Part shown: one piece after another, positions 12,051 to 31,171 of the stretch
Layout of the letters: the number at the start of each line of letters is the position of its first letter
Numbering within the stretch: the first letter of the stretch is position 1
From: a virus
Direction: 5' to 3' (one strand)
DNA length: 31,446 nucleotides
Virus record (IMG/VR): IMGVR_UViG_3300025099_000086
Span: 1 to 31,446 of that record
Notes under the pieces: model-generated
Database searches by the model: none
What the model saw: only the letters and a program-made list of their open reading frames with translations
What the model was told of the DNA's origin: nothing
Translations under genes and position numbers: made by a program

Positions 12051-12087
12051 TATAGAGTAGTCATCTCTATGGGGTGACTACACTATA
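12051..12087 (+). other. Long stem-loop just upstream of a start codon
   Basis: Fifteen bases (12051-12065) pair with 12073-12087 at 14 of 15 positions (one A-A mismatch, one T-G wobble) around a seven-base loop TCTATGG. It is followed by TAAAAAAAG and not by a T-tract, and the ATG at 12101 is 13 bases downstream. It lacks terminator features on either strand. An RNA-processing site or translation-control element is more likely. Confidence 0.6.
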
Positions 12088-12100
12088 TAAAAAAGAAATT

Positions 12101-12805
12101 ATGGCAGTAAATATAGATACAGTTTATCAAAGAGTATTAGCAATAGCTAACAAAGAACAAAGAGGTTATATAACACCTCAAGAGTTTAATCTACTAGCTA
12201 ACCAAGCTCAATTGGATATATTTGAGCAATATTTTTATGATTTAAATCAGTTTAGTAGGTTACCAGGTAATGAAACAAAGTATTCTGATATTGTAGATAT
12301 GTTAGAAGAAAAAATATCTATATTTGAAAAATTTAGACAAGATGTCAGTATGTCAGCTGGCGGTGTTGGCGCTTTGCCCGCAGCTACACATAAGTTAGGT
12401 GTTGTAAGTTACAATACAGGTTCCGGTTATACTGAAGTTGAACACCTTAACCAAAATGAGTTAAATAAATATATAAACTCACCATTAACCAAGCCAGTCA
12501 CTAGCAGGCCGGTGTATATAAAAACATCTAAAACAGCAATACAAGTATATCCAACAACTATTACATCAGCTGTAACTTGTAATTATATAGCAAAACCTGC
12601 AAAAGTAAAATGGGATTATGTTATTATAAATGATCAAGCTTTATACAATTCAACAAACAGTACTAATTTTGAATTACACGAATCTGAAGAAACAGATTTG
12701 GTTATTAAAATATTAGAATTATCTGGGTTAGTAATTAAAGACCCTAGCTTGTATCAAATAGCATCACAAGAAGAAACACAAAAAGTACAACAAGAAAAAT
12801 TATAA
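12101..12805 (+). CDS. Neck/head-tail connector candidate
   Basis: 234 residues from the ATG at 12101. An in-frame GTG at 12074 is possible but lies inside the hairpin stem, and MAVNIDTVYQRVLAIANKEQ reads as a natural start after an A-rich leader. The N-terminal third is helical (GYITPQEFNLLANQAQLDIF, then EQYFYDLNQFSR) and the middle is beta-rich (TSRPVYIKTSKTAIQVYPTT; TCNYIAKPAKVKW). The last third returns to helix (ETDLVIKILELSGLVIKDPS). This helix-beta-helix plan and the position after the head genes fit an adaptor or ring protein that docks under the portal. The start recalls a conserved neck protein of Bacteroidetes podoviruses. It ends three bases before the next ATG. Confidence 0.6.
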   Translation: MAVNIDTVYQRVLAIANKEQRGYITPQEFNLLANQAQLDIFEQYFYDLNQFSRLPGNETKYSDIVDMLEEKISIFEKFRQDVSMSAGGVGALPAATHKLGVVSYNTGSGYTEVEHLNQNELNKYINSPLTKPVTSRPVYIKTSKTAIQVYPTTITSAVTCNYIAKPAKVKWDYVIINDQALYNSTNSTNFELHESEETDLVIKILELSGLVIKDPSLYQIASQEETQKVQQEKL

Positions 12806-12808
12806 TAA

Positions 12809-13732
12809 ATGGCTTTACTAGGAACAACAAACGAAACGTATTATGAGGGTAGTGATGGAGTTTTTAACACATCAGACGACTTAGGTGTCTATGGTAATTA
12901 TCAATATGTAAGTTTTAAAGATCTTGTAAATAACTTTATGGTTGCGTATGTTGGTGAAGGTAAAATTATTACAAAAATAAAAAGACCAGATATTAATTTT
13001 CACGCGCAAAGAGCACTACAAGAATTAAGTTACGATACATTAAGATCTACAAAATCTCAAGAGGTTGATGTTGGTTCTAGTTTAACAATACCATTACCAC
13101 AAGATTATGTTAATTATGTTAAAATGTCTTGGGTTGATAGAAATGGTTTAGAAAATTTAATACACCCAAGTAGAGTAACAAGTAATCCATTATCTATAAT
13201 ACAATCTGAAACAGAAGATGCTAATAATAATTATCCATATACTTTTGATAGTGATGGTAATTTACAAACATCTGAAAACTCATCCACATGGACGAAATAT
13301 AAAGCTAATGTTAGCGAAGATTCTGATGATGATAATGATACAGAACCAGATACCTCTTTAAATGAAGGTAGAAGATATGGTTTAGACCCTGAGTTTTCTC
13401 AGTCAAAAGGTGTATTTTTTATAGATCCGTTAAAAGGTAGAATACACTTTAGTTCAAATATAAGTGGTAAGACAATAACAATAAAATATATAAGTGATGC
13501 TTTAGCTACAGAAGGTGAAATGAAAGTCCATAAGTTTGCTGAAGAAGCTGTGTACAAATACATAGCACATGCTGTTTTAGCTACAAAGGCAAATACACCA
13601 GAGTATTTAGTTGCAAGATTTAAAAAAGAAAGATTTGCTGAAATTAGAAAAGCTAAATTAAGATTAAGTAATTTAAAATCAGAAGAGTTGGCTCAAATAA
13701 TGAGAGGTAAATCTAAACAGATTAAACATTAA
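12809..13732 (+). CDS. Second neck/tail-tube adaptor candidate
   Basis: A 307-residue protein. A helical N-terminal part (SFKDLVNNFMVAYVGEGKII, then FHAQRALQELSYDTL) leads into IPLPQDYVNYVKMSW (94-108) and a beta strand pair, GRIHFSSNISGKTITIKYIS (210-229). Between them lies an acidic linker, SEDSDDDNDTEPD (169-181). A long C-terminal helix is rich in Lys/Arg. The pairing of a LPxDY strand with a late I-K-Y-x-S-D strand is the pattern I associate with T7 gp11-like tail tube A or gatekeeper proteins of short-tailed phages. It precedes the nozzle gene by six bases, matching the T7 gp11-gp12 order. Function is inferred. Confidence 0.6.
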   Translation: MALLGTTNETYYEGSDGVFNTSDDLGVYGNYQYVSFKDLVNNFMVAYVGEGKIITKIKRPDINFHAQRALQELSYDTLRSTKSQEVDVGSSLTIPLPQDYVNYVKMSWVDRNGLENLIHPSRVTSNPLSIIQSETEDANNNYPYTFDSDGNLQTSENSSTWTKYKANVSEDSDDDNDTEPDTSLNEGRRYGLDPEFSQSKGVFFIDPLKGRIHFSSNISGKTITIKYISDALATEGEMKVHKFAEEAVYKYIAHAVLATKANTPEYLVARFKKERFAEIRKAKLRLSNLKSEELAQIMRGKSKQIKH

Positions 13733-13738
13733 TAAGAT

Positions 13739-16700
13739 ATGCCAGAATTAAAACATCATTTTCGTGCAGGTCGAATGAATAAAGACTTGGACGAAAGGCT
13801 AGTTCCTAACGGTGAGTATAGAGATGCTCAAAATGTCGAGATTATAACATCAGAAGGCTCTGACGTTGGGTCTGTACAAAATGTCGTGGGTAATCAAAGA
13901 AAAGATGGTAAGTCATATGATGCTAATACAAAAATATTAACGCTATGGGGTAATTCTTCAAACTCTATAAAAGACCTAACAAATGCCCGATGTATTGGAC
14001 ATGTTACAGATACTCAAAATGATAAATTATATTGGTTTATAGCAGCTACAGGCGTTAGTGCTATTGCTGAATATAATTTCGAAACAAGTGAAATAAAACC
14101 TGTATTAGTAGACAAAAACAACATACTAAAATATAGTTCAGATTATTTAATAACTGGCGCTAATGTTGTTGAAGGTTTATTATTATGGACAGATAATCAG
14201 ACAGAGCCTAAAAAAATAAAAATCTCATCATTTAAATCTGGCTCAACAAACTTTAACACTCATACAACTTTTAATGGCGTTGCTTTTACGGAAGATGATA
14301 TTACCACAGCTAAGTTATCACCTTTAAAAGCTCCAACATTAACTATGTCAGCGTCAAAGAGAACTGGAGCTGGTATAGGTTTAGGTACAAAAGTATATAC
14401 TAACTTTGACTTCACTGAAGATGCAGATGGTCAAGCAGGCACACCTAATACAGTTAGACCATCAGGTCAGGAGATAACATTGAATTTTACACCAACACCT
14501 AGTTTTATTGTTGGTGATATTGTAACGCTAAGACTTGAGCATACAGATACTGATAATATAGAAAAAGAATATATAATAAAGGTTTTAGTTAAAACTTTAG
14601 TTAACAGTGGACAACAAATAAAAGCTGTAATACAGAGTATACCTACAGACACGCCTATTGGTAACTTTACGTATGAAGCATCTTTGGACGGTGAAGATCC
14701 TTTATTTGAAAATAAATTTGTAAGGTTTGCTTATAGATGGAAATATAAAGACGGTGAATACTCAACGTACTCTCCATTTTCAAAGGTAGCGTTTTTACCT
14801 GGACCATTTGAGTATAAATCAACTGATGGTAGAAACACTGGTATGTCAAATAATTTAAGACAACTAACTGTTAATGTAACTGAAACAAAACCAGCTGATG
14901 TAGATGAGATAGATATATTATACAAAGAATCTACAAACAACTTAGTTTATGTAGCTGATACACTTAAACAAAAAGGCGATGGTACATTTCCGTCATTGTC
15001 ATATGAGGTAACATCTGAAATCATAGGTAGTGTTGTTGAATCTAATCAAATATTAAGACCGTGGGATAATGTACCTAGATTAGCAAAAGCTCAAGAAGTT
15101 ACAGCTAATAGATTAATATACGCTAATTATCTCCAAAATTACAACATAATACAACAAAACTTACCTGATATACAAACAACAGTAGAGCAGACCGCAATAA
15201 CAACAGTGGGATCTCCAGAAGCTTCGCTAAAGTCAATGAGAACATATCAAGTGGGTGGGGTTTACATAGATAAATATGGTAGAGAAACACCTGTATTTTC
15301 AAATAAAAAAGCAGCTAAAAATATAAACAAATCATACGCTGATACAGTTAATAAGTTATCGTGTAAAATGTTAAATGATGCTCCAGAGTGGGCAACTCAT
15401 TTTAAGTATTTTGTAAAAGAAACATCTAACGAATACTATAATGTATCATTAGATAGATTTTATATGGCTGAAGATGGTAACATATGGTTAAGTTTTCCAT
15501 CATCAGAGAGAAATAAAGTATCTGAAGATAGTTATTTAATACTTAAGAAGCAACATGATAAAAACACATTTGTTGCGGCTGAAGCTAAATATAAAGTATT
15601 AGATATATCAAATGAAGCTCCAGAGTATATTAAAAAAGAAATTAAAACGATAGGCTCGGCTACATGTCAAGTGTTAAGTCAAAGTCCACTTAATCCACCA
15701 GAAGTTGGAAGAGTTACTTTTCAGTTTAGAGGACCAAAGGATGTAGATAACCCAGTGTTTGCAAGGGGCTTTACGTCAGATGGTATGCTAACAATAACAA
15801 CAACCGGTGGTACGACAGAAAGATACGAAATAGCTAGCGGTGGTATAACGGGAAAACAAGACGCTGGTAGTGATCCAAAGACAATATACGAAGTTACACT
15901 TAAAAAACCATTAAAAGATACTGAAGCTAATGTTCTAGTAGCTGATTTAATAGCGGCTAACGATGAAATAACAATAACGTTATATGAAGAACAAAGCACG
16001 GAAAAGCCTGAGTTTTTTGGTAGATTTTTTGTTAAGATAAATAGAGACACAATATTTGATTCAAATATTATAGATTCTTTTCCTGCAGCTGAAGCTGAGT
16101 ACGGTATTATAAGAGATAGAATTGTAGATCTTGATTCCAGTAATGATTTTGGTACTAATGGAGTGTTTATTAGTATTGTTATATTTACAGTTACAGGTAT
16201 ACCAGTGTCGCCAACTTGGTTTGAAAAAAGTGAAGATGTCGAAACTCTATCGTGGAAAGATACTAAAGCAAAAAATAATAATAGAGATCATGAGACTGGC
16301 GTAAGACAAGACTGGAGGCAATTAACATCTGGACATCCTGTACTTGGAGATAAGAAAATGAAATTATATTTTACAGGTGTTAAAACATCATTTGATAAAT
16401 CCGATGCTCACGATGCTAGTAACGTATTAAATCCATTTTTAGAAGCAATATCTAGCGCTGGTACGTACTTTCAGTTTGAAAATGAAAATGGCTTTGAGGG
16501 ATCTATATATGAGATAGAATATACTGATGTAGATTATCAATACAGAAGTGGTAGAAAGAGACATAGAAAGAAAATAGGTGGTAAACGTAGAGAATATACA
16601 GTTAATTTTAAAAACGTAAAAACAGGTGAAGGTTATGATGATTCATTTAATTTAGCTGGAACTGGCTCATCGGCTAGAATCAAAGCCATACGTATAATGA

Positions 16701-19700
16701 AGAAAATTGTTAATATAAACAATGAAACATTATCATCTGAAAATCCAGCTATATTTGAAACAGAACCTAAAGAAGCTGTTGATTTAGAATTATTCTACGA
16801 GGCAAGTAATTCAATACCTATATTAAAACAAGGTATGAAAGTTACTGGAACACATATACCAGCAAGCACAACGATAAGTAGTATAACAGACGCAAACACG
16901 TTTACATTGTCACAAGCAACAAGTGGCGGTACAATAGCCGATGGATCAACGTTAACTATTTCATCAAATGACGATGTGTATTCATTTACAGTAACAGTAA
17001 ACGGAGCATTAACAAGCGGTAGTACATCAGTTGTTATAACAGATGGTCAAGTTCACGGCCAATCACAAACATTAGACTGGTTTAATTGTTACTCGTTTGG
17101 TAACGGTGTAGAATCAAATAGAATTAACGATGATTTTAATGCGCCTTTAATAGATAAAGGCCCTAAAGTTTCTTCTGTATTAGCAGAACAATACAAAGAA
17201 GATCAAAAACAAAATGGTTTAATATTCTCTGGTATATTTAATTCAACATCAGGTATAAACAGATTAAATCAATTTATACAAGCAGAGCCAATAACAAAAG
17301 ATATTAACCCACATTATGGTAGTATACAAAAATTAAAAGCAAGAGATACTGATCTTATTACATTTTGTGAAGATAAAATTATTAGAATATTAGCTAATAA
17401 AGATGCTTTATTTAATGCTGATGGTAATCCTCAATTAACAGCTACAAATAGAGTGTTAGGACAGGCGGTACCATACGTTGGTGACTATGGTATAAGTAAA
17501 AATCCAGAGTCATTTAGTTCTCACGCATATAGGATATATTTTACAGACAAAGCGCGAGGAGCTGTTTTAAGGTTATCTAGAGACGGTTTAACTAATATAG
17601 CGCAAAAGGGCATGACAGATTGGTTTAAGGACAATCTAGCAGCGTCTACGTCATTACTAGGTAGTTATGACCAATATAAGGGTGGTTATAATCTAACTTT
17701 AAAAGGTACTGATAACTATACAGTTTGTTTTGATGAAAGAGTTGATGGTTGGACAAGTTTTAAGTCATTTATACCAGAAGATGCTTGTTCTTTAAACAAT
17801 ACGTATTATTCATTTAAAAATGGTGAGCTGTTTTCACATGACAACCCCGTAAGAAATAAATTCTATGATGTGTCAGCCAACCAAAATGATACAACAAAAG
17901 ACTATGCAACAACAGTTACAGTATTAATTAATGATTCGCCTTCATCAATGAAGTCGTTTAAAACGTTAAACTACGAAGGAACAAAATCAAGAAAATATAC
18001 GTATACTGGTACTATAAATAGTAAGAGTTATTCTAATTTAACTTGGGACCAAATAAATCCATTAACACCTACACAAGCAGAGTGGACAGCGTTGTCAGAA
18101 ACAGTGGGTAAAGGTTGGTACGCAGAGTCTATTGAAACTGATAAGCAATCTGGTATTATTAAAGAATTTAAAAGTAAAGAAGGTAAGTGGTTTAATTATA
18201 TAAAAGGTGAAGAAACAAGCTTAGGTAACTTAGATTCAAAAGAGTTTTCAGTGCAAGGTTTAGGTACGTTTGCTGAGTTAAGTGGTGATGTAACACCTAC
18301 AAATAAAAATGTTACAGTTAGTATAAACAATACTACAAGTGGACATAATACTGATGTATCTGCTACTGTTGTATTATCTAAAGCTCCTGGAGCTAGTATA
18401 TCTGAAAGTGTTACACTAACAATAAAGCCAAATACAGGTTTTACAATAGATGCCACGTCATTTGCGTTTGCGAGTGAAACAAGTTCAACAGTTACTGACG
18501 CTATGGGTAATGCTACATTTGCTCAGTCTGGGAATAATATTGTGATGACTGTACCATTAAGCTTTACAATGCCTAGTAATGATCAAACTGTACAAGTTAA
18601 TATAACAGGTGCTGCAACAGCAAATAATTACTCTGTTGCTGGAACTTTTGATGTTGTAGAAAGTAATACTACATCTAGCCCAGCTAACATAAAAGACGTT
18701 GCTTATAGTGGAACTGGTACTTATAATACCACGGCAGCTACAGTATTCACAAAAACATTTACAGCTAAAGAAGATAAAGCGGCTGCATACCAAAATATGA
18801 ACGCGGTTGATTATACTTTTGATACCAATACATCTGATAGTGATCCTGGTGCTGGTAAAATTAAGTTTAATAATAGTAACGCTGCTAGTGTAACGGAAAT
18901 ATATATTGACGATACAGCTGGAGGTGTTGATAAGCAATCACAATATGCTTTATTGCAAAATCAAAATACGATAACAAAAGGTTTTGTAAGGGTTGCTGAG
19001 AATGGTAGTACAACAAACTTTACTGAATTTAAAGTGTCAGCCGTAACTCATAATTCAGGATATTGGAAATTAACAGTAAATACACCAACAGCTGGATCAG
19101 GTGGTCATTTTGATTATGCAACTGCTGACACTAAAGATGTTACATTTTTTGAAGTAGATGGCTTTAAGTTTAACGTCAAGCCAACGGCTGAGATAATTAA
19201 ACAAGATGAAGATGATATTAGTAGTTATACTATAGCTGAATCAAATTGGGATGGTGATCAAAATCAAATTACATTTACTGTAAAATATGTGTATAGCACA
19301 AATAATCCTACAACGGATAAAATATTATTTACAGCACACGCAGAAAAAATATTTGTAGATCCAGATACTCAAGTTACAGCATTTTTTGCATCAACTAAAC
19401 CTATTAGTAGACGAGGCGAAACTAGAACAATGACTGTAGCTGGTATGCCAGGTGCTACGTTTAAGTTTACTAGACAGATAACGGTTGGTAGTGGTAGCGC
19501 TGGTACTTTGCACTATTGGAACGGTACTACATTTGTAACATCAGACACAACATTAACAATAGGTAATACAGGTGTGGTTGATATAACAGAGGTTTACGCA
19601 GCATCATCTGCAACTAAAACGTTTGCATATAAAATTAACGCAACAACAGCACACCCTGTTTTAGGTGGTAATTTAGACGCTGATAACGATGGTGATCACG

Positions 19701-20764
19701 ATTTTAGTATTGGTCAAAATGCAGATGTTTCATTTACATTAAAAGCAACTGAAACAGCAGCTAACATTGAAAATGGACCAGATCATGGTAGTGTAACAAA
19801 AAATTACTACGCTTTTGGTGAGCCTTCAAGTGATGCAGATGCTGGTTCGTTTAAGTTTGAAACAACTGTTCAAGCTAACGGAAACACAGAGTCATTTACC
19901 GTAACACTACCACAAGATGAAAAATTATTTACACAAGCAGAAACAATTAATACAGTAGACGGAGCGGTTAGTGGTAACAACGTTACTGTAAACTTTGATG
20001 ACGACAACCGTAGTTTTGTTGTAGGTATGCTTGTTGAGGGAACTGGTGTTCCAGCTGGTGCTACAATTGGTAGCGTAACAGATGCTAACACTATTGTTCT
20101 TGCTAATGCTTCAGGTTGTAATATAGCTGATGGAGCTGAGTTAACAGTAAAGCCAGCGAATGATTGGGAGTGGGATTTAAATAATATAGCAATTACACCA
20201 ACAGCTAACGTTGGAGCGAAAGACACTTGTAAAATAGAAGCTGATGTACAAATATTAAAATATGGATCTACAGATTTAGCATGTGAAATTAATCTAGATC
20301 ACTGTTTACAACTTGGTAGTACAGGTGGTGGTGGTTCTGGAGGAACTACATTATTAACAATAGATAGCGCTGGTAGTGTAACAGATGATAGTAAAGAGTA
20401 TGGTGGTGGAAGTCCTAACGTGACATCCACAGCAGCAACGCCTAAGGTTATATCAGGTGGATCAACAAGTCATACTATAAACACGATGACAATACAAGGT
20501 AACTGGGATGGTAATAACTTTGCTAACGGTGAGATAAAAGCGTATTTATATATACCATCTGGTTCTGCGGTAACAACAATAACAGGTGTTGGAGATGCCG
20601 CATCAACTAGCGGCGAAAGGCGTAACATAACAGTTTCTGGAACAGGTACGGTTAGTGGCACTGGTACAGGTACTATATCTAATATTGGTTTAACATACCT
20701 ATCTTCTAGCTCTTCATCTAATATAAAAATTGGAGTAAGAATATGGTTAGAAGCAACACCTTAA
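13739..20764 (+). CDS. Giant tail nozzle-like protein fused to fibre-like domains
   Basis: 2341 residues. The start GRMNKDLDERLVPNGEYRDA (11-30), then a SEGSDVGSVQN segment, is the signature I associate with T7 gp12/P22 gp10-type nozzle proteins. Residues 1-1390 continue this plan with propeller-like strands, including YGSIQKLKARDTDLITFCED (1193-1212), AYRIYFTDKARGAVLRLSRD (1263-1282) and FDERVDGWTSFKSF (1331-1344). From about 1500 the sequence changes to Thr/Ser/Asn-rich Ig-like repeats. A Gly linker (STGGGGSGG, 2194-2202) leads to a C-terminal beta domain. T7 gp12 is about 800 residues, so this is about three times longer. A roughly 48-residue module occurs twice, at 1032-1079 and 2095-2142. 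I infer a nozzle that also carries host-contact domains. It has no membrane segment and no enzyme motif. Confidence 0.7.
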   Translation: MPELKHHFRAGRMNKDLDERLVPNGEYRDAQNVEIITSEGSDVGSVQNVVGNQRKDGKSYDANTKILTLWGNSSNSIKDLTNARCIGHVTDTQNDKLYWFIAATGVSAIAEYNFETSEIKPVLVDKNNILKYSSDYLITGANVVEGLLLWTDNQTEPKKIKISSFKSGSTNFNTHTTFNGVAFTEDDITTAKLSPLKAPTLTMSASKRTGAGIGLGTKVYTNFDFTEDADGQAGTPNTVRPSGQEITLNFTPTPSFIVGDIVTLRLEHTDTDNIEKEYIIKVLVKTLVNSGQQIKAVIQSIPTDTPIGNFTYEASLDGEDPLFENKFVRFAYRWKYKDGEYSTYSPFSKVAFLPGPFEYKSTDGRNTGMSNNLRQLTVNVTETKPADVDEIDILYKESTNNLVYVADTLKQKGDGTFPSLSYEVTSEIIGSVVESNQILRPWDNVPRLAKAQEVTANRLIYANYLQNYNIIQQNLPDIQTTVEQTAITTVGSPEASLKSMRTYQVGGVYIDKYGRETPVFSNKKAAKNINKSYADTVNKLSCKMLNDAPEWATHFKYFVKETSNEYYNVSLDRFYMAEDGNIWLSFPSSERNKVSEDSYLILKKQHDKNTFVAAEAKYKVLDISNEAPEYIKKEIKTIGSATCQVLSQSPLNPPEVGRVTFQFRGPKDVDNPVFARGFTSDGMLTITTTGGTTERYEIASGGITGKQDAGSDPKTIYEVTLKKPLKDTEANVLVADLIAANDEITITLYEEQSTEKPEFFGRFFVKINRDTIFDSNIIDSFPAAEAEYGIIRDRIVDLDSSNDFGTNGVFISIVIFTVTGIPVSPTWFEKSEDVETLSWKDTKAKNNNRDHETGVRQDWRQLTSGHPVLGDKKMKLYFTGVKTSFDKSDAHDASNVLNPFLEAISSAGTYFQFENENGFEGSIYEIEYTDVDYQYRSGRKRHRKKIGGKRREYTVNFKNVKTGEGYDDSFNLAGTGSSARIKAIRIMKKIVNINNETLSSENPAIFETEPKEAVDLELFYEASNSIPILKQGMKVTGTHIPASTTISSITDANTFTLSQATSGGTIADGSTLTISSNDDVYSFTVTVNGALTSGSTSVVITDGQVHGQSQTLDWFNCYSFGNGVESNRINDDFNAPLIDKGPKVSSVLAEQYKEDQKQNGLIFSGIFNSTSGINRLNQFIQAEPITKDINPHYGSIQKLKARDTDLITFCEDKIIRILANKDALFNADGNPQLTATNRVLGQAVPYVGDYGISKNPESFSSHAYRIYFTDKARGAVLRLSRDGLTNIAQKGMTDWFKDNLAASTSLLGSYDQYKGGYNLTLKGTDNYTVCFDERVDGWTSFKSFIPEDACSLNNTYYSFKNGELFSHDNPVRNKFYDVSANQNDTTKDYATTVTVLINDSPSSMKSFKTLNYEGTKSRKYTYTGTINSKSYSNLTWDQINPLTPTQAEWTALSETVGKGWYAESIETDKQSGIIKEFKSKEGKWFNYIKGEETSLGNLDSKEFSVQGLGTFAELSGDVTPTNKNVTVSINNTTSGHNTDVSATVVLSKAPGASISESVTLTIKPNTGFTIDATSFAFASETSSTVTDAMGNATFAQSGNNIVMTVPLSFTMPSNDQTVQVNITGAATANNYSVAGTFDVVESNTTSSPANIKDVAYSGTGTYNTTAATVFTKTFTAKEDKAAAYQNMNAVDYTFDTNTSDSDPGAGKIKFNNSNAASVTEIYIDDTAGGVDKQSQYALLQNQNTITKGFVRVAENGSTTNFTEFKVSAVTHNSGYWKLTVNTPTAGSGGHFDYATADTKDVTFFEVDGFKFNVKPTAEIIKQDEDDISSYTIAESNWDGDQNQITFTVKYVYSTNNPTTDKILFTAHAEKIFVDPDTQVTAFFASTKPISRRGETRTMTVAGMPGATFKFTRQITVGSGSAGTLHYWNGTTFVTSDTTLTIGNTGVVDITEVYAASSATKTFAYKINATTAHPVLGGNLDADNDGDHDFSIGQNADVSFTLKATETAANIENGPDHGSVTKNYYAFGEPSSDADAGSFKFETTVQANGNTESFTVTLPQDEKLFTQAETINTVDGAVSGNNVTVNFDDDNRSFVVGMLVEGTGVPAGATIGSVTDANTIVLANASGCNIADGAELTVKPANDWEWDLNNIAITPTANVGAKDTCKIEADVQILKYGSTDLACEINLDHCLQLGSTGGGGSGGTTLLTIDSAGSVTDDSKEYGGGSPNVTSTAATPKVISGGSTSHTINTMTIQGNWDGNNFANGEIKAYLYIPSGSAVTTITGVGDAASTSGERRNITVSGTGTVSGTGTGTISNIGLTYLSSSSSSNIKIGVRIWLEATP
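16832..16975 (+). repeat. Copy 1 of an IPAxxTIxSxTDAN module
   Basis: Encodes residues 1032-1079 of the nozzle-like protein, containing GTHIPASTTISSITDANTFT and IADGSTLTISSNDD. It sits between two nozzle-type blocks, so it appears inserted into the conserved half. This module type is common in phage tail proteins and adhesins. Confidence 0.65.
20021..20164 (+). repeat. Copy 2 of an IPAxxTIxSxTDAN module
   Basis: Encodes residues 2095-2142 of the nozzle-like protein, containing GTGVPAGATIGSVTDANTIV and IADGAELTVKPAND. It aligns with copy 1 over its full length without a gap by eye, although the DNA has diverged. It lies in the fibre-like C-terminal part. Confidence 0.65.
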
Positions 20765-20774
20765 AATTAAGATT

Positions 20775-21098
20775 ATGGCAGATACAATAACAATGACATT
20801 TACAAACGATATTAACACATCATTACAAATAAACGATATTATATATCATCAAAAAAATGATGGTACATTACAGGGTATTGGTAAATGTACAGCTACTACA
20901 GCAAAAACATTAACATGTGAAATACCAGAGGCACAAATACGGCCAACAAGTAGTCAAATGATATTATTTAGCAAGAATAATAGAGCTAATTTATCATCAG
21001 TTAATGGTTATTATGCTGAGGTTAAAATGAGAAATGACGACTCTGATGCAGTTGAGTTATACGCTGTTGGATCAGAGATATTTGAAAGTAGTAAATAA
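20775..21098 (+). CDS. Small beta-rich structural protein candidate
   Basis: A 107-residue protein of alternating strands: TITMTFTNDINTSLQINDII, then a turn, KTLTCEIPEA, MILFSKNNRANLSS and GYYAEVKMRNDDSDAVELYA. No signal peptide or membrane segment is seen. Its position between the nozzle-like gene and the ejection proteins suggests a small tail-tip or nozzle accessory. It starts ten bases after the nozzle stop with TTAAAATTAAGATT in front. The function is not recognised. Confidence 0.7.
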   Translation: MADTITMTFTNDINTSLQINDIIYHQKNDGTLQGIGKCTATTAKTLTCEIPEAQIRPTSSQMILFSKNNRANLSSVNGYYAEVKMRNDDSDAVELYAVGSEIFESSK

Positions 21099-21138: not shown

Positions 21139-21738
21139 ATGGTACCACAGGCAATAGGAGCAGGCGTAGCAGCATTATCAGGAGTAGTAGGCGGTATAGT
21201 AGGTAGCGGTAAAAGAAGAAGAGAGCAAGCAGCAGCTAAAGAAGAGCTAGCTATGAATAAAGCAGCTTATACTAATTTAGATACCTCTAACCCATACGCG
21301 GGTATGCAAAACACCTTTGAAGATCTTACGGTAAATACACAAGCAGCAGATTTTGCAGCACAACAGCAGCAACAAGGTTTAGCTAACACAATGGGTGCTA
21401 TGAGTGGCGCAGCTGGTGGTAGTGGTATTGCAGCTTTAGCTCAAGCTATGGCAAATCAACAATCACAAAACATGCAACAAGCTTCTGCTTCAATAGCACA
21501 GCAAGAACAACAAAATCAAATGGCAGCAGCACAAGGTGCGGCTAACGTACAAAATATGCAAATGCAAGGTGAAGCAATGTCAAGACAAATGGAAGCAGAT
21601 AAAATAGGAACATTAACACAGATGTCTATGTCTAGAGTACAAGATGCAAACGCAGCTAGACAAGCAGCTAAAGATTCAATAGTTGGTGGAATAGCACAAG
21701 CTGGAGCATCACTCGCTGCAATGGCACCAACAAAATAA
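21139..21738 (+). CDS. Internal virion (ejection) protein, T7 gp14-like
   Basis: A 199-residue protein, close to T7 gp14 (196). The N-terminus is a Gly/Ala/Val hydrophobic helix (AIGAGVAALSGVVGGIVGSG, 5-24) followed by a basic cluster KRRREQ. The middle is Gln/Ala-rich helix (AAQQQQQGLANTMGAMSGAA; QQSQNMQQASASIAQQEQQ), and a second Ala/Gly segment ends it (SIVGGIAQAGASLAAMA). Such proteins are packed inside the head and ejected to form a channel across the host envelope. The match is in size, composition and gene order, not in a diagnostic motif. A 40-base AT-rich leader precedes it. Confidence 0.65.
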   Translation: MVPQAIGAGVAALSGVVGGIVGSGKRRREQAAAKEELAMNKAAYTNLDTSNPYAGMQNTFEDLTVNTQAADFAAQQQQQGLANTMGAMSGAAGGSGIAALAQAMANQQSQNMQQASASIAQQEQQNQMAAAQGAANVQNMQMQGEAMSRQMEADKIGTLTQMSMSRVQDANAARQAAKDSIVGGIAQAGASLAAMAPTK

Positions 21739-23767: not shown

Positions 23768-26700
23768 ATGGAGGAATTAAATATTTTAATTAGACGTATG
23801 GAAAGAGCTGGTATGTCTCCAGCGGCTATTCGCCTTAGAATAGATCAATTAAAAATCACTAACCCTGAGTTATTTGGTAAACCTCCTCAACCTCAATCTA
23901 AATCTCAACCTTTTTTTAATGTAGCATCTCAACCAGACATACAAGATAACATTAAGAAAAGTTTAGCTAAATTAAAGGACATGCCTTCATCTGAGTCTGC
24001 ATTCTCTAATTACACTCGAGATGAAAAACAAAAACAAATTGATTTACAGCGCTTTGAAACACCAGAGCAACTAATAGAATATTATGATAAAAAAATAGAA
24101 TCAAATCCGATACATAGACTTGTGGGTGGGCTTGCTGGTTTTTTAGGTTATGATAGTTATTTAGATGATATAAAATCAGGTTATGGTATAAGAGGTGATG
24201 TACAAAATACTATGTATGATGCTTTTGGAGGTGAGAATCTAGAATCAATGTTAGGTGAAATGGGATTAGGCAATGGTTTTGACGCGGAAGATGTTGACCC
24301 AGAAAAATTAAGGCAATTTGTGGTAGCAGCGCAAGCAATGGAAATGACGCCAGAGTCTCAAGATTATTTAGATTGGGAAAACGCGTATCAAGAAAATTAT
24401 TTAGAAAATTTAAAAAAAGGACACGGTTCACTTAAAGCAAACACATTAGCTTTAATGACAGCGACAGGTAGTAATTTTGCTGGTATGACATCAGCTGCTG
24501 TAAAATCCATGGCACAGATGTTTAACTCATCGTCATTTAAAGCAGGTGTAGGAGCTGTTGGTACTGTTGCAGCGGGTACAGCGGCTGCTACAGGTGGTAC
24601 TGGTTTACCTAGTCTTTTACTTACTGGTCCAGCTGCGTATTTTGGCGCATCAGGTGTAGCAATGGAAAACGCTATGACTTTTACTAATTTAATAAGTGAG
24701 CAGCTACAAGAAAAAGGTTTAGAAATGACCTCTGAAAACATAATTGATCTATTAAATAACGAGGAAGATCAGCGTAGAATAACAAATATATCATTAGGTA
24801 GAGGTATGACGATAGGAGCTGTTGAAGGTATGTTCTCACTCGTTGGAGCTAAAGGTGCTGGTAATGTATTTTCAAGAGTGTCATCAAAGGTAGGAACAAG
24901 TTTGACTGGTAGGTTAGCAGCTGGTACAGCCGCTAGTACTGTAGGTGGTGCAGCTGAAATTTTAGGTGGTGGTATTGGAGAAGCTGCGGGTATGACAATT
25001 GAAGGTAAAGCATTAGATGCTAAAGAAATATGGCTTGAAAGTTTTGCGGGACTTGGTACAGCGCCAGTTACCACAACAGCCGGTGTAATTGACACAATGC
25101 TTAAACCACCGAAGTACACTATTGGAAAGCAAGAATATAGCAGAGAGCGTATAAAGGAAATGCTTAGTGACATGACCGATGCAGACATATATCGGTCAAA
25201 AATTAAAGTTACTAACGATCCAACGTTAGAAAGAGAAATAAACGACAGAAAAAATAAATTTATAATTGACAATCAATTAGACAAGGATATTACTGATAAA
25301 GCTGATAGAGCTAGAATAGTTGATTTAGAAATGCAAATAAATAAAATAAAAGGTAGTGATACTAATTTTAACAAACAAAAGCTATCTGAATTAAAAGCAG
25401 AACAAAAAGAAATTATAGATAAATATATTAAAGCAGATATAACAAGAACAGAAGCATTTGCTGATAAGTTAGGTGCTGATGTATTTTCTGGCTCTCAAAC
25501 AGAGGTTGACGCTTTTGTTGAAAAGTTTAATAAAGATAATAATCTAACAGATAAACAAAAATACTCATCAGATGGGCTTGGTAGTATAATTACAGATAAA
25601 AACGGTAAAGATACAATAATTATAAATAAAGATGCGGCTAGAAAAACACAAAGGTTTACAACGGGTCAACATGAAATTTTACACGCTATATTAAAAAAGT
25701 CTTTAAAAAACAATGATGCTATTACTATTAAATTAGGTCAAGAATTAAAAAATTATTTAGATAAAATATCAACAAAAGACCTATATCTTAAAGATGGGAA
25801 AGGAAATTTTGTACGTGATAAAAACGGTCAGAAAATAGCTAACAGTGATTTTATAAAAAGATTTGAAGCATATGGAAAATTAGTAAAAGATGGTAATTAC
25901 AGTCAAGCTGATTTATTTGAGGAGGTTTTTACATTAGCGTCTGAAGCAATGGCAAATGGTGATTTAACATTTGAACAAAACACGTTTGATAAAATAATTG
26001 ATTTATTTAAACAGTTTTACAAACAAATATTTGGCGGAGAGTTAGTAATTGATAACGCTAAAGATATGTTTAATTTTATTAAGGAGTATAATAAAGATTT
26101 TAAAGCAGGTAGAGTTAAGGATAAATATAAAGGAAAACTAACGTTTGGTGAAAATCTAAAGGAACGCGCTAAAAGCATTGTTATAAAAGAGCAAGAATCA
26201 GCACGACAAAAAAAATCGCTTTTTGACGTAGATCCATTTGAGCAATATAGATTAGATCCAGCGGAAAGAAAAGAAAAGGTTAATAGATTATATCAAGAGG
26301 GAGGTTTAGGTAATTTAGAGCAAATTATAAAACCATTTTTACCTATAGCAAGAGACCTTGTAAAATCAAGACAAAGAATTGATAATGTTAGTAGACAAGA
26401 GAGACAAGATTTAATTAACGATTATACAGCGGCTACAATAGAAAAGCTAATGCAGCACATACAAGCTTTTGATCCTAGTAAAAATAAAGATTTTGATGCT
26501 TATGTAAATTCATACGTTGATTTTAAGAGAGGTTCAGCGGCTAAACAAATGCAAACAAAAGAAACTAAATTAACAGAATCACAAGAAAGAAAAGCTAAGA
26601 AAAAAGTAGATGACACGGTTGAAGAAGTAGATACGCCACCTATAAGTAGTAAAATTACATTAGAACCAGAAATTCAAGAGAAATTTAAAACTAATGTTGA

Positions 26701-29700
26701 AAATCTTGTAGTACAAGCTACTAAGCTAATATCATTAGGTAAATCACCAAAACAAATCCAAAAATTTTTACAAGGTAAATTTAGAAACCAAAATATAGCT
26801 AAAGATATTAAGAACACTATTAAAGATAAAAAAGTATATAAGAAGTTTTTAGAAGATAATTTTGAAACATTTTTTAATGATGTTAACGTAGAAACTTTAA
26901 ATAAAAGATTTAGAGGTGATAAAAATAATCCAGATTTATTTTCTAAATCTACTGGTAAGAGATACCAAAGAAGTGATACATCAGAGCCTTATAAGTTTAT
27001 GAAACAACCTTGGTCACGAGTTGAAGATCAATACTTAGCTTATTTCCTTGATGATACAGCGCAAAATGTAAACAACAGAAAAGATAAGATAGTAGAAGAA
27101 ATATCAAACTACATGTCATTTGAAGCTGCGCAAGAAATAACACAATCTTTGAACTTTACTGTTGATAAAGATATTGTTGAATTGTCTGAATTAAAAGTAG
27201 ACGAGATTATTGATAAAACTAAAGCGGCTACAAACGTGCGACAAAGATTTAGTTTAACACCAGACGAATTAACCATCCTTGATAAAAACAGAAAACCAGT
27301 AAAGGAGATTTTAGGTCAATACTCTGTTGGTAAAAATGGTATTTCCACACGTAGGTGGTATGAGAACAATAAATCAAATGTACTAGAAAAGATAAAAAAT
27401 AAAAAAATAAGAGATATAATAGAAAAGTTTGTTAATAGCGCGGAGTATATTTTAGAAAAATCTAAATTTAGCAGGTTTACAATTTACATGAAAACAAAAT
27501 TTATCGGTGAAAACGAGGGTGTTATGGATGTAATTGGTAAGTCATTTGCTGCTAAAAATGAAACAGATCAAAAACAAATAGCCCGTAAGACACTTGAGTT
27601 ATTTAAAACATTTTCACCTGAACTTTTGAAAAAATTTGGTTTTGGTGCTCAAGGTGGAAAGGTTAGCATTAGCTCTTTTATAAGGTTTGGATTAACCACA
27701 CGTGGAATGAATGTTGAAGGATCACCATGGGTAAAGGATAATAAATATGCTAAAGAGTTAGTGGAGGGAGCTCAAAAACATTTAAACAAAGAGAATGTAA
27801 AATTAGATAACATTGAATCACATAAGAAACTACAGACAGACGCTGACTGGAAGTTTTTAGAACACGCTATATATAAAGGTTCTAAATTAGAAAAAGAAAT
27901 ACGAGGTGTACTAGAAAGTAATTCAAAAAATAAAATAAACGAAATACCTTGGGATGCTATAAAAAAACACAATAAAAATGCGTATAAAGCAATAGTTATT
28001 TATAATTTAAAACTTGCCGAACTGTTAAAAAATGCACACAATATTAAAAACAAAGAAGATAAAGCACAGGCAAAAGCTGATATAACTAGAATGCAACAAG
28101 CAACAACAAGTGCAATAGATTCTATATTTAAAGGTTCTGTTATAGTAGATTTTATAGAAATTATTGAGGGTAAAAAACAATTTACAGGTAAAGAATCAAG
28201 GTTGTATATAGAACATCTTCAAGAAAACGCTAAAAGTTTAGTTGAATTTGATAAAATTAATGATCAATATATGCGTGGTAAAATAAACCAAAACACATAT
28301 ATCACTAAAGCTTTAAAAATAGCTAAACAAATGACAATTAGTATTAATGATAGTAAGAACACGGTTTATATGGACAATATAAGTAAGGTTTTAGATACTA
28401 AAATGAAAAATGGTCAGGATGTTAAAAACGCTGGTATGATGAAGCTAGGCGCTATCCCACCTAATAAAAGGAAAAATTTTATAAATGTCACAACAAGAAA
28501 AAACCTCAACGATACCCTAGCGGAAACAATGGAAATTAACGCTCTCGCTATCAATAAACAATCATTTTCTTTAGATATAGAAAAGTTTAAAAATTACGAT
28601 AAAGCTTTAGAAATGGCTAGAAGAAAAAACCCACCTAAAAAAGGTGCTAGCTTTATAGATTTTGATGATACATTAGCTACAAGTGATAGTAAGGTTATAG
28701 TTAATATGCCTGATGGATCAACCAATGAAATAACACCAGCAGAATTCGCACAACAACATGACAATCTTGTAAATGAAGGCGCTAGCTTTGATTTTCAACA
28801 ATTTAATAAAGTTATAAAAGGTAAAAAAGGACCATTTTTTAATAAAGCAAAAGCATTAAAAGACAAATTTGGTAACAGTGATATTTATATAATTACAGCT
28901 AGACCGGCTGAGTCTGCTTTACCAATAAGGAAATTTTTAAAAGGTGTTGGGCTAGATATTAAATTAGAAAATATAGTGGGATTAGAAGATGGTAGACCAG
29001 AAGCAAAAGCTGAAGTAATAGTTGAAATGGCAGCTTTAGGTTATAATGATTTCTTATTTGCTGATGACGCTATTCAAAATGTTAAAGCAGTACAAAAAGT
29101 TTTAGATGTATTAGATATTAAAGGTAAAACATATCAAGTTGAGCAAAAGTTTTCTTTAGATTTAGACAAAGAGTTTAATCAAATAATAGCAGATAACAAG
29201 GGTTTAGATCCTAATGCTAAATTTTCAGAAGCAGCAGCGAGGGTTAGAGGCGCTAAATCAGATAGTTTTTGGAAAAGATTATTTGTACCACCATCAGCAG
29301 AGGACTTTTTAGGATTAATGTATCACTTTGTTGGTAAAGGTAAAAAAGGAGAAAAGCAATTAGCATTTTTAAAGAAAGCTTTAATTGACCCGTTTAGTAG
29401 AGCGTTCAACAACATGAACACAGCTAAGCAAAGATTAAGTAACGAGTTTGATGCGTTAAATAAAGAATATAAAGCTGTTAAGAAAAAATTAACTAAAGCA
29501 ACTGATTATAATAACTTTACATTTGGAGCTGCTATAAGAGTATATCTTTGGGATAAAAATGGTATTGACATACCTGGTATATCTAAAAGAGATTTAAGCA
29601 CTTTAGTTAGTATCGTAAAAAATGACCCTGAAATGATGGCTTATGCTGACAAATTAGGTAAGGTAAGTAATCAACCAGATGGTTATGTTTTACCAGATGA

Positions 29701-31171
29701 AAACTGGGTTGCTGGTAGTGTGCTAGGTGATATAAATGACATTAACACAAAAGTTAATAGAAAAGAATTTTTAAAAGAGTGGATAGAAAATAAAAATATT
29801 ATATTCTCTAAAGATAATTTAAATAAAATAGAAGCTCTATATGGAACTAGTTTTAGAGAAGCTTTAGAAGATATATTATACCGTATGGAAAACGGTAGTA
29901 ATAGACAAAAGGGTAATAATAAATTAGTTAATAGATTTACAGACTGGGTAAATAATTCTGTAGGTACAATAATGTTTTTTAACAGAAGATCTGCCGTTTT
30001 ACAGTTAATATCTAGTATAAACTTTATAAACTGGTCTGATAACAACCCTATTAAATTTGCAGCCGCTATAGCTAACTTCCCACAATTTGCTAAAGATTTC
30101 GCTAGAATATTTAACTCGGACATGTTAAAGCAAAGAAGAGCAGGTCTACAAACTGATGTTAGCGCATCTGAAATAGTAAATCAAGCTGCTAATTCAAAAG
30201 ATAAGTTTACAGCTATTGTATCACATCTTCTTAAAAAAGGTTTTATATTTACACAGATAGCAGATAGTTTTGCTATTGCTACGGGTGGTGCTACATTATT
30301 TAGAAACAGAGCAAACACATATGTAAAGCAAGGTATGTCTTTGAAAGATGCTGAAGCAAAAGCATTTTTAGATTTTCAAGAAATATCTGAGGTATCGCAG
30401 CAATCAGCGAGACCGGATCTTATATCTGAACAGCAAGCTGGTCCATTAGGTAGAATAATACTAGCGTTTCAAAATACACCTATGCAGTATACTAGGTTGA
30501 TTAAGAAAGCCGCGTTAGATTTAGCTAATGGTAGAGGTGATACAAAAACTAATATATCAAAGATATTATATTACGGTGCTATGCAAAACCTTATATTTAA
30601 CGCAATGCAACAAGCATTATTTGCCATAGCGTTTGATGATGAGGAAGATGAAAAAACTAAGAAAAGATATGATCGTATAGCTAATAGTATGGCAGATACT
30701 ATACTAAGAGGTACTGGTGTTTACGGTGCGGCTATATCTACAATAAAAAACGTGGCGTTAAAGTTTATTGAGCAAGACGCTAAAGGTTTTAGAGCTGATC
30801 ATACGTATACATTAATTGAAGCACTTAACTTGTCACCGCCAATAGGTAGTAAAGCAAGAAAAGTATATGGAGCAACACAAACTATTAAGTTTAATAGAAA
30901 AGAAATATCAGAGAAAGGTTTTGCTTTAGACAATCCAGCGTACGAAGCTTTAGCTAATGTTCTTTCAGCGGGTGCAAACATACCAGCTGATCAGGTTGTT
31001 AAAATAATAAAAAATACATCTGAAGCCTTAAACAATCAAAACCAAGCATGGCAAAGAATAGCATTAGCCTTAGGTTGGAACACTTGGGACCTTGGTATAG
31101 AGCAGCAAAGAAAAGAAGACGAAAAATTAAAAAAGAAAAAGAAGAAGCAAAAACAAGTAATTTTTTGGTAA
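23768..31171 (+). CDS. Giant polyvalent ejection protein: zinc protease, sigma-like, HAD
   Basis: 2467 residues in the T7 gp16 position (gp16 is 1318). In order: helical start; Gly/Ala-rich, possibly membrane-inserting stretches (about 225-300 and 343-442); a zincin motif HEILH (635-639) with acidic LFEEVFTLASEAMA (716-729) behind it; a sigma-70 region-2-like stretch (about 846-928) with DLINDYTAATIEKLMQ and AFDPSKNKDFDAYV; an unassigned helical region (940-1595); a HAD phosphatase domain (about 1604-1792) with DFDDT (1631-1635), IITAR (1708-1712), Lys1747 and DDAIQN (1766-1771). A conserved-looking C-terminal region (1830-2440) follows, then a Lys-rich tail. RQRFSL, KQSFSL and EQKFSL lie at 1158, 1597 and 1792. 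No lysozyme or transglycosylase motif is seen. I infer a head-packaged protein delivered into the host that carries several activities. Position supports this but does not prove it. Confidence 0.75.
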   Translation: MEELNILIRRMERAGMSPAAIRLRIDQLKITNPELFGKPPQPQSKSQPFFNVASQPDIQDNIKKSLAKLKDMPSSESAFSNYTRDEKQKQIDLQRFETPEQLIEYYDKKIESNPIHRLVGGLAGFLGYDSYLDDIKSGYGIRGDVQNTMYDAFGGENLESMLGEMGLGNGFDAEDVDPEKLRQFVVAAQAMEMTPESQDYLDWENAYQENYLENLKKGHGSLKANTLALMTATGSNFAGMTSAAVKSMAQMFNSSSFKAGVGAVGTVAAGTAAATGGTGLPSLLLTGPAAYFGASGVAMENAMTFTNLISEQLQEKGLEMTSENIIDLLNNEEDQRRITNISLGRGMTIGAVEGMFSLVGAKGAGNVFSRVSSKVGTSLTGRLAAGTAASTVGGAAEILGGGIGEAAGMTIEGKALDAKEIWLESFAGLGTAPVTTTAGVIDTMLKPPKYTIGKQEYSRERIKEMLSDMTDADIYRSKIKVTNDPTLEREINDRKNKFIIDNQLDKDITDKADRARIVDLEMQINKIKGSDTNFNKQKLSELKAEQKEIIDKYIKADITRTEAFADKLGADVFSGSQTEVDAFVEKFNKDNNLTDKQKYSSDGLGSIITDKNGKDTIIINKDAARKTQRFTTGQHEILHAILKKSLKNNDAITIKLGQELKNYLDKISTKDLYLKDGKGNFVRDKNGQKIANSDFIKRFEAYGKLVKDGNYSQADLFEEVFTLASEAMANGDLTFEQNTFDKIIDLFKQFYKQIFGGELVIDNAKDMFNFIKEYNKDFKAGRVKDKYKGKLTFGENLKERAKSIVIKEQESARQKKSLFDVDPFEQYRLDPAERKEKVNRLYQEGGLGNLEQIIKPFLPIARDLVKSRQRIDNVSRQERQDLINDYTAATIEKLMQHIQAFDPSKNKDFDAYVNSYVDFKRGSAAKQMQTKETKLTESQERKAKKKVDDTVEEVDTPPISSKITLEPEIQEKFKTNVENLVVQATKLISLGKSPKQIQKFLQGKFRNQNIAKDIKNTIKDKKVYKKFLEDNFETFFNDVNVETLNKRFRGDKNNPDLFSKSTGKRYQRSDTSEPYKFMKQPWSRVEDQYLAYFLDDTAQNVNNRKDKIVEEISNYMSFEAAQEITQSLNFTVDKDIVELSELKVDEIIDKTKAATNVRQRFSLTPDELTILDKNRKPVKEILGQYSVGKNGISTRRWYENNKSNVLEKIKNKKIRDIIEKFVNSAEYILEKSKFSRFTIYMKTKFIGENEGVMDVIGKSFAAKNETDQKQIARKTLELFKTFSPELLKKFGFGAQGGKVSISSFIRFGLTTRGMNVEGSPWVKDNKYAKELVEGAQKHLNKENVKLDNIESHKKLQTDADWKFLEHAIYKGSKLEKEIRGVLESNSKNKINEIPWDAIKKHNKNAYKAIVIYNLKLAELLKNAHNIKNKEDKAQAKADITRMQQATTSAIDSIFKGSVIVDFIEIIEGKKQFTGKESRLYIEHLQENAKSLVEFDKINDQYMRGKINQNTYITKALKIAKQMTISINDSKNTVYMDNISKVLDTKMKNGQDVKNAGMMKLGAIPPNKRKNFINVTTRKNLNDTLAETMEINALAINKQSFSLDIEKFKNYDKALEMARRKNPPKKGASFIDFDDTLATSDSKVIVNMPDGSTNEITPAEFAQQHDNLVNEGASFDFQQFNKVIKGKKGPFFNKAKALKDKFGNSDIYIITARPAESALPIRKFLKGVGLDIKLENIVGLEDGRPEAKAEVIVEMAALGYNDFLFADDAIQNVKAVQKVLDVLDIKGKTYQVEQKFSLDLDKEFNQIIADNKGLDPNAKFSEAAARVRGAKSDSFWKRLFVPPSAEDFLGLMYHFVGKGKKGEKQLAFLKKALIDPFSRAFNNMNTAKQRLSNEFDALNKEYKAVKKKLTKATDYNNFTFGAAIRVYLWDKNGIDIPGISKRDLSTLVSIVKNDPEMMAYADKLGKVSNQPDGYVLPDENWVAGSVLGDINDINTKVNRKEFLKEWIENKNIIFSKDNLNKIEALYGTSFREALEDILYRMENGSNRQKGNNKLVNRFTDWVNNSVGTIMFFNRRSAVLQLISSINFINWSDNNPIKFAAAIANFPQFAKDFARIFNSDMLKQRRAGLQTDVSASEIVNQAANSKDKFTAIVSHLLKKGFIFTQIADSFAIATGGATLFRNRANTYVKQGMSLKDAEAKAFLDFQEISEVSQQSARPDLISEQQAGPLGRIILAFQNTPMQYTRLIKKAALDLANGRGDTKTNISKILYYGAMQNLIFNAMQQALFAIAFDDEEDEKTKKRYDRIANSMADTILRGTGVYGAAISTIKNVALKFIEQDAKGFRADHTYTLIEALNLSPPIGSKARKVYGATQTIKFNRKEISEKGFALDNPAYEALANVLSAGANIPADQVVKIIKNTSEALNNQNQAWQRIALALGWNTWDLGIEQQRKEDEKLKKKKKKQKQVIFW

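Follow-up and report, generated by a model that had tools for sequence, protein, structure and literature searches.

A putative split of the crAss-like muzzle gene by a fibre cassette in a marine phage, and a beta-module family in its loops

CrAss-like phages are an abundant group, and the muzzle is one of their conserved parts. According to its published description (PMC10172136, Nature 2023), the muzzle of crAss001 is a hexamer, crAss-like muzzles are thought to gate the ejection of DNA and protein, and insertions into the crass and IG2 domains make their length vary. Both the muzzle and this kind of length variation are already known; the split muzzle gene with an inserted fibre that we propose here is a new variation. 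In the open-access literature searched, which included PMC10172136 and PMC10136315, we found neither a split muzzle gene, nor a fibre inserted into one, nor the module described below.

The muzzle and its fibre extension

We analysed a 31,446-base stretch of phage DNA, hereafter called the window, that holds a podophage structural block: terminase, portal and structural proteins, followed by the ORF at 13739-20764. The features that we refer to are listed here.

12074-12805, + strand: virion structural protein (phrog_14543), by gene order probably another ring protein
12809-13732, + strand: virion structural protein B (phrog_13977), a ring protein by gene order
13739-20764, + strand: muzzle body plus fibre extension, one ORF of 2341 aa with an ATG start
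13739-18331, + strand: muzzle (nozzle) part, residues 1-1531, with HMM segments N (1-791), M (1112-1322) and C (1328-1513)
16823-17050, + strand: module 1 insert, residues ~1029-1104, from loop length comparison and AlphaFold2 pLDDT
17702-17722, + strand: M/C junction, residues ~1322-1328, unbroken in the window; the gene is broken here in some relatives
18332-20761, + strand: fibre extension, residues 1532-2341, from blastp to stand-alone fibre genes of relatives
19946-20152, + strand: module 2 insert, residues ~2070-2138, missing at this site in locus L016 and found in L015 and L045
20775-21098, + strand: T, a 107-aa ORF, putatively the muzzle C-terminal domain encoded apart (T HMM, phrog_18548)
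21139-21738, + strand: landmark X, the gene after T, recognised by gene order, which is the same in relatives

We found that residues 1-1531 of the ORF at 13739-20764 are a crAss-like muzzle of the gp44 family. A profile search matched this part to phrog_14478 at E 9.1e-128, and hhalign placed window residues 1183-1454 on residues 1052-1311 of crAss001 gp44 (gut crAss muzzles) at E 1.4e-14. The AlphaFold2 model of residues 1000-2165 (1166 aa) was poor overall, with a mean pLDDT of 61.5 and a pTM of 0.31. Its best PDB match was the crAss001 muzzle 7qol_P (Z 14.0 over 177 residues), which places window residues 1182-1379 onto gp44 1026-1253 and shows that the propeller fold of the nozzle is present in the window muzzle; other phage nozzles ranked next. 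Outside the propeller the fold matches of this model were weak, and a single-sequence search of solved structures returned nothing significant for the whole ORF or for the module. The Pfam model crAss_MUZ_C scored 23.7 bits (E 6.6e-5), below its curated cut-off of 27, which is an annotation threshold and not a biological feature.

The window phage is marine and related to the crAss phages of the gut. Its muzzle resembles crAss001 gp44 (7qol, 7qok) in the propeller fold, the order of the segments, the place after the ring-protein genes and the profile matches, whereas gp44 is a single 1371-aa chain without a fibre and without an obvious T barrel. The window muzzle is not contained in one chain: its final domain appears to be the separate ORF at 20775-21098, and we therefore term it a split variant. 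The nearest named relatives are Pervagoviridae, Pachyviridae and Elemovirus, whose records carry no Crassvirales label, and the named relatives at about 30-34% identity are Cellulophaga, Flavobacterium, Maribacter and Tenacibaculum phages. In Cellulophaga phages phi40:1 and phi13:2, the Flavobacterium elemo phages and Tenacibaculum phage Gundel, the muzzle segments are ~26-39% identical to those of the window and the gene order is similar. However, phi40:1, elemoF and Gundel carry T fused within the muzzle ORF, and in phi13:2 and its kin the gene is broken at M/C, with an Ig/cadherin-like extension at that point.

Behind the muzzle the chain continues as a fibre of ~810 aa with Ig-like domains, the N-terminal part of which is homologous by blastp to the stand-alone fibre genes of L016, L027-L033 and others. 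One predicted Ig-like domain covers residues 1876-1999 (model residues 877-1000), with a VIA Z near 8 against complement C3, and a Gly-rich linker lies near residue 2200. This fused-fibre form is known from uncultured contigs only. A nozzle-fibre fusion had been proposed for this ORF in an earlier, sequence-only reading, and the fused layout was borne out, with the nozzle ending near residue 1531 rather than ~1400 and a fibre of ~810 rather than 900 aa. The same reading missed that the final ~107 aa of the muzzle lie outside this ORF, being assigned to 20775-21098. Upstream of the terminase, at 3-2084, the window also contains an ORF of 693 aa that resembles a tail fibre and ends in a Peptidase_S74 domain (endosialidase chaperone, PF13884, E 3e-9), so the phage has at least one further fibre gene.

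The T domain and the break points of muzzle genes

T and the copy-1 loop were surveyed across the 88 loci that hold an M segment. T was scorable in 72 of them; the remaining 16 all break off at the locus end while still in the muzzle ORF or extend no more than about 1.4 kb past that ORF. We observed T fused to the muzzle in 7 of the 72 scorable loci and as a separate gene in 65, a count that still enters L011 under T-fused, and likewise under M/C split, despite the exclusion of Maribacter phage Panino explained below. The T HMM matched behind C in the same chain in L002, L006, L010, L011, L012, L013 and L094, and also in L181, and the alignment of six natural C+T fusions was colinear. In the window, phrog_18548 covers both ORFs, with muzzle residues 1328-1420 at profile positions 4-90 and the T ORF at positions 143-239. 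Since T stands in one chain with C elsewhere and a single profile runs across both window ORFs, these data suggest that the muzzle gene is interrupted by the fibre. With the nozzle's end encoded by the following gene, the nozzle-fibre fusion amounts to an interruption: the window ORF appears to join a neighbouring muzzle and fibre and to leave the end of the muzzle as a gene of its own.

The separate-T loci took two forms. In 34 of the 65 the muzzle ORF carries an extension of at least 200 aa, as in the window, and T lies within 50 bases in 23 of these 34. In the other 31 the muzzle ORF ends soon after C, and T follows only after 1.2-3.3 kb of other sequence in separate ORFs, in most cases a fibre gene; the muzzle ORF of 15 of these loci ends exactly 18 aa past the C segment, which is the start point of the fibre in the window. 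It is to stand-alone fibre genes of such loci that the N-terminal part of the window fibre is homologous. Fused versus separate T needed 2 changes on the careful tree of 70 rows. On the strength of these sequence comparisons we consider it probable that the locus holds a split muzzle, with a fibre cassette before the last domain, T supplied by a separate gene, and a module family in the loops.

Alternatively, T might be an independent adaptor that joins the fibre to the muzzle and became part of the muzzle chain only in certain lineages. The gut crAss muzzles stop shortly after the C segment, without an obvious T barrel, and in the split loci T adjoins the fibre cassette or the fibre extension, both of which are consistent with an adaptor. 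However, T is fused in all five cultured phages of the set (L002 and L010-L013) and in L181, a branch at 99 in a quick tree separates those five, used as the outgroup, from the marine rows, and the C+T fusions are colinear; we therefore regard an adaptor as unlikely. Assembly or frameshift errors offer another account of split and fusion, and Maribacter phage Panino seems to be an instance: the break in its muzzle falls inside a segment and comes with a frame change, and we did not use this probable frameshift as a natural split site. As a general account, error is very improbable, given that T is a separate ORF in 65 loci and that in 31 of them kilobases of other sequence lie between muzzle and T. 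Under the split-muzzle reading, T may have been added in the branch of the window, since crAss001 and other gut muzzles show no obvious T barrel. Placing T on crAss001 gave a divided result, in that local profile alignment sets the last T strands on the gp44 C-terminus whereas global alignment does not.

Muzzle genes are broken at further points. A break at M/C was observed in phi13:2 and its kin, L006, L072 and ctfjg026 (L181), and in L092 and L094 the gene breaks within the loop-1 insert, where 10-22 bases separate the ORFs. An N/M break in L091 looks like overlapping frames and was set aside. In L092 (3285-12390) and L094 (3837-10491) the split falls within a small barrel at the module-1 site, so that each ORF encodes half of the barrel. 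In two of the loci broken at M/C an ORF lies between the muzzle pieces. That of L181 is small and is named 'putative glycosidase', a name for which we found no supporting family in Pfam or PHROG; that of L006 (12475-13380, 301 aa) belongs to phrog_4417, of unknown function, and is glycosyltransferase-like by eye only.

A beta-module family in loops and fibres

The earlier reading had also seen one module in both halves of the ORF. Smith-Waterman comparison of residues 1-1530 with residues 1531-2341 gave a top score of 124, on 1032-1105 against 2096-2172, while 200 shuffles of the same comparison reached at best 87 (mean 62). Within the set of loci searched, tblastn recovered the pair at E 2e-7, with 48 aa aligned at 54% identity, and phmmer gave E 1.5e-8. 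In the module core 81 of 135 aligned DNA bases are identical, so the pair does not stem from a recent copying event. The two copies are each other's best match in the set (score 114); other genomes come near for copy 1 (112 and 111), and since these scores are so close we make no claim that copy 2 derives from copy 1.

An AlphaFold2 model of copy 2, built with 62 family members, showed five strands at a pLDDT of 88.8. In the model of residues 1000-2165, copy 1 reached a pLDDT of about 86-94 (window residues ~1030-1109) and copy 2 was less well predicted. Rather than different folds, we found the core strands in the same order in both copies (one AlphaFold2 model), copy 1 being without the leading strand of copy 2 and having two extra strands behind. 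Homologous beta-modules at residues ~1029-1104 and ~2070-2138 thus confirm the shared module.

Copy 1 sits in a loop between the conserved anchors FETEP..YYEAS and LDWFNCYSFGNGV. Of the 88 loci, 43 have only a short loop here, 34 carry another insert in it and 11 carry the module, with L010 and L013 assigned by hand and L051 on a doubtful anchor. Module versus no module needed 2 changes on the careful tree (70 rows), for example one gain and a loss in L018, and none of 500 label shuffles was as low. The clade of the window comprises eight module rows and the module-less L018, with support 98/95. Copy 2 is cleanly absent from L016, whose fibre is 78% identical to that of the window over the first ~145 residues, and L015 and L045 carry the module at the same place. 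Copy 1 is therefore a trait of the window's clade and copy 2 is less stable, and both are optional among relatives. Comparison of the module with the other loop-1 inserts by hhalign (prob 71, E 3.6e-5) was suggestive only; on this signal, an insert at the site may predate what the module label suggests. Kinship of the module with the T barrel or the major capsid protein was also considered, and hhalign gave it no support.

To follow the family more widely, we grew a profile from the two copies and found 92 module copies in 42 of 94 sources, these being the window and 93 loci, with L001 (a piece of the window) left out and near-identical contigs included. The muzzle accounts for 26 of these copies, with 9 at the loop-1 site, 10 at other places on the N side and 7 within M-C; a further 13 belong to fibre extensions, 3 to ring protein B and 50 to other ORFs. 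When a single L070 copy served as the query, 80 loci were returned, 77 of them without any crAss-like family profile. Judged by these matches, related modules occur in muzzle loops, fibres, ring proteins and many unrelated phage structural proteins; together with a loop-1 module in 11 of 88 loci and the loss of copy 2 in L016, this supports the module traffic that the earlier reading had suspected. In named phages, tblastn of copy 1 gave no match at E 0.01, that of copy 2 two weak matches (E up to 10) and that of the L070 copy one match, in Roseobacter phage CRP-345 (E 0.03). Two muzzle ORFs, L040:4840-13311 (2823 aa) and L025:5080-13716 (2878 aa), carry eight module copies each at E <1e-4. 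Modules of the same family were also seen in structural proteins of phages without crAss-like profiles (L105:2990-5269 and L120:1060-3405); one of the two proteins weakly resembles a tail tube (PF18906, E 3.4e-4), and one belongs to phrog_3287.

No named model in the family libraries searched covers the module. Pfam, NCBIfam and PHROGs gave no good family, the best being End_beta_barrel (3 of 62 copies) and phrog_5838 (4 of 62), and neither window copy matched End_beta_barrel (PF12195) or any other Pfam family. The top fold match was the decoration protein of Arthrobacter phage Bridgette (8eci chain 1; Foldseek prob 0.97, VIA Z 6.3, rmsd 2.7 over 62), which was also the third-ranked profile match of the module. 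At E 0.067 for the fold and 0.14 for the profile these matches are not significant, and a capsid protein differs from a tail insert.

The phage endosialidase beta barrel binds sialic acid, and the module could be a carbohydrate-binding unit that is swapped among tail proteins and alters receptor specificity. The endosialidase barrel is likewise a phage tail protein domain, the three copies that match it do so weakly (best E 4.3e-4), and endosialidases are among the weak profile and fold matches. That barrel belongs to an enzyme, however, and the window copies are without a match to it; the top fold match is a capsid decoration protein, and copies are also found in ring-protein inserts, where reaching host sugars is less likely. 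Sugar binding, which the sequence-only reading had raised as a possibility, was thus not supported, and a swapped sugar-binding unit seems to us improbable. The chance that the module merely lengthens or stiffens loops and fibres, without a ligand, falls just short of even: the small and apparently stable barrel, its many positions and its conserved columns, mostly Gly and hydrophobic, would all suit a spacer, but the module is retained at site 1 in most of the window's clade. We consider the module at least as likely to be a spacer or an adhesive decoration as to bind sugars.

Proposed assembly of the split muzzle

We propose that the ORF at 13739-20764 encodes a subunit of the crAss-like muzzle, the hexameric channel of the tail tip, with the fibre cassette placed right before the last muzzle domain. 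In the lineage of the window the fibre would continue the muzzle body as a single chain, so that each muzzle subunit should bear an arm of ~810 aa made of Ig-like domains. T, the displaced last domain, would be produced as a separate protein and would most likely re-dock next to where the muzzle body ends. If the hexamer holds here, six such arms would hang from the muzzle close to where it meets the tail barrel, probably contacting the host surface early, and may thus serve as muzzle-borne receptor arms. The repeated module is predicted to be a small beta-domain with five strands, and its family inserts into the loops of structural proteins in phages.

A broader proposal is more tentative, and we hold it at somewhat less than even confidence. 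Most of the marine crAss-like phages in this branch might build their muzzle as an obligate multi-chain assembly, its gene broken at up to three beta-strand junctions (loop 1, M/C and C/T) and the pieces re-associating in the virion. The breaks would act as docking points for exchangeable fibres, the channel itself rather than a separate hub would bear the six receptor arms, and the loop barrels of one mobile module family would sit on the same machine. A muzzle gene interrupted repeatedly, with a fibre in the gap and the final domain encoded elsewhere, would suggest a way to mount receptor-binding arms directly on the channel. The split muzzle would also provide a natural split-protein system for studies of muzzle assembly and gating, and the module family illustrates surface-domain exchange among marine phage structural proteins.

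The window also contains, at 23768-31171, a 2467-aa ORF in the position of the crAss cargo proteins. It matched no Pfam family at the cut-off; by eye, it carries a zinc-protease-like HEILH motif and a HAD-like DDTLATSD stretch.
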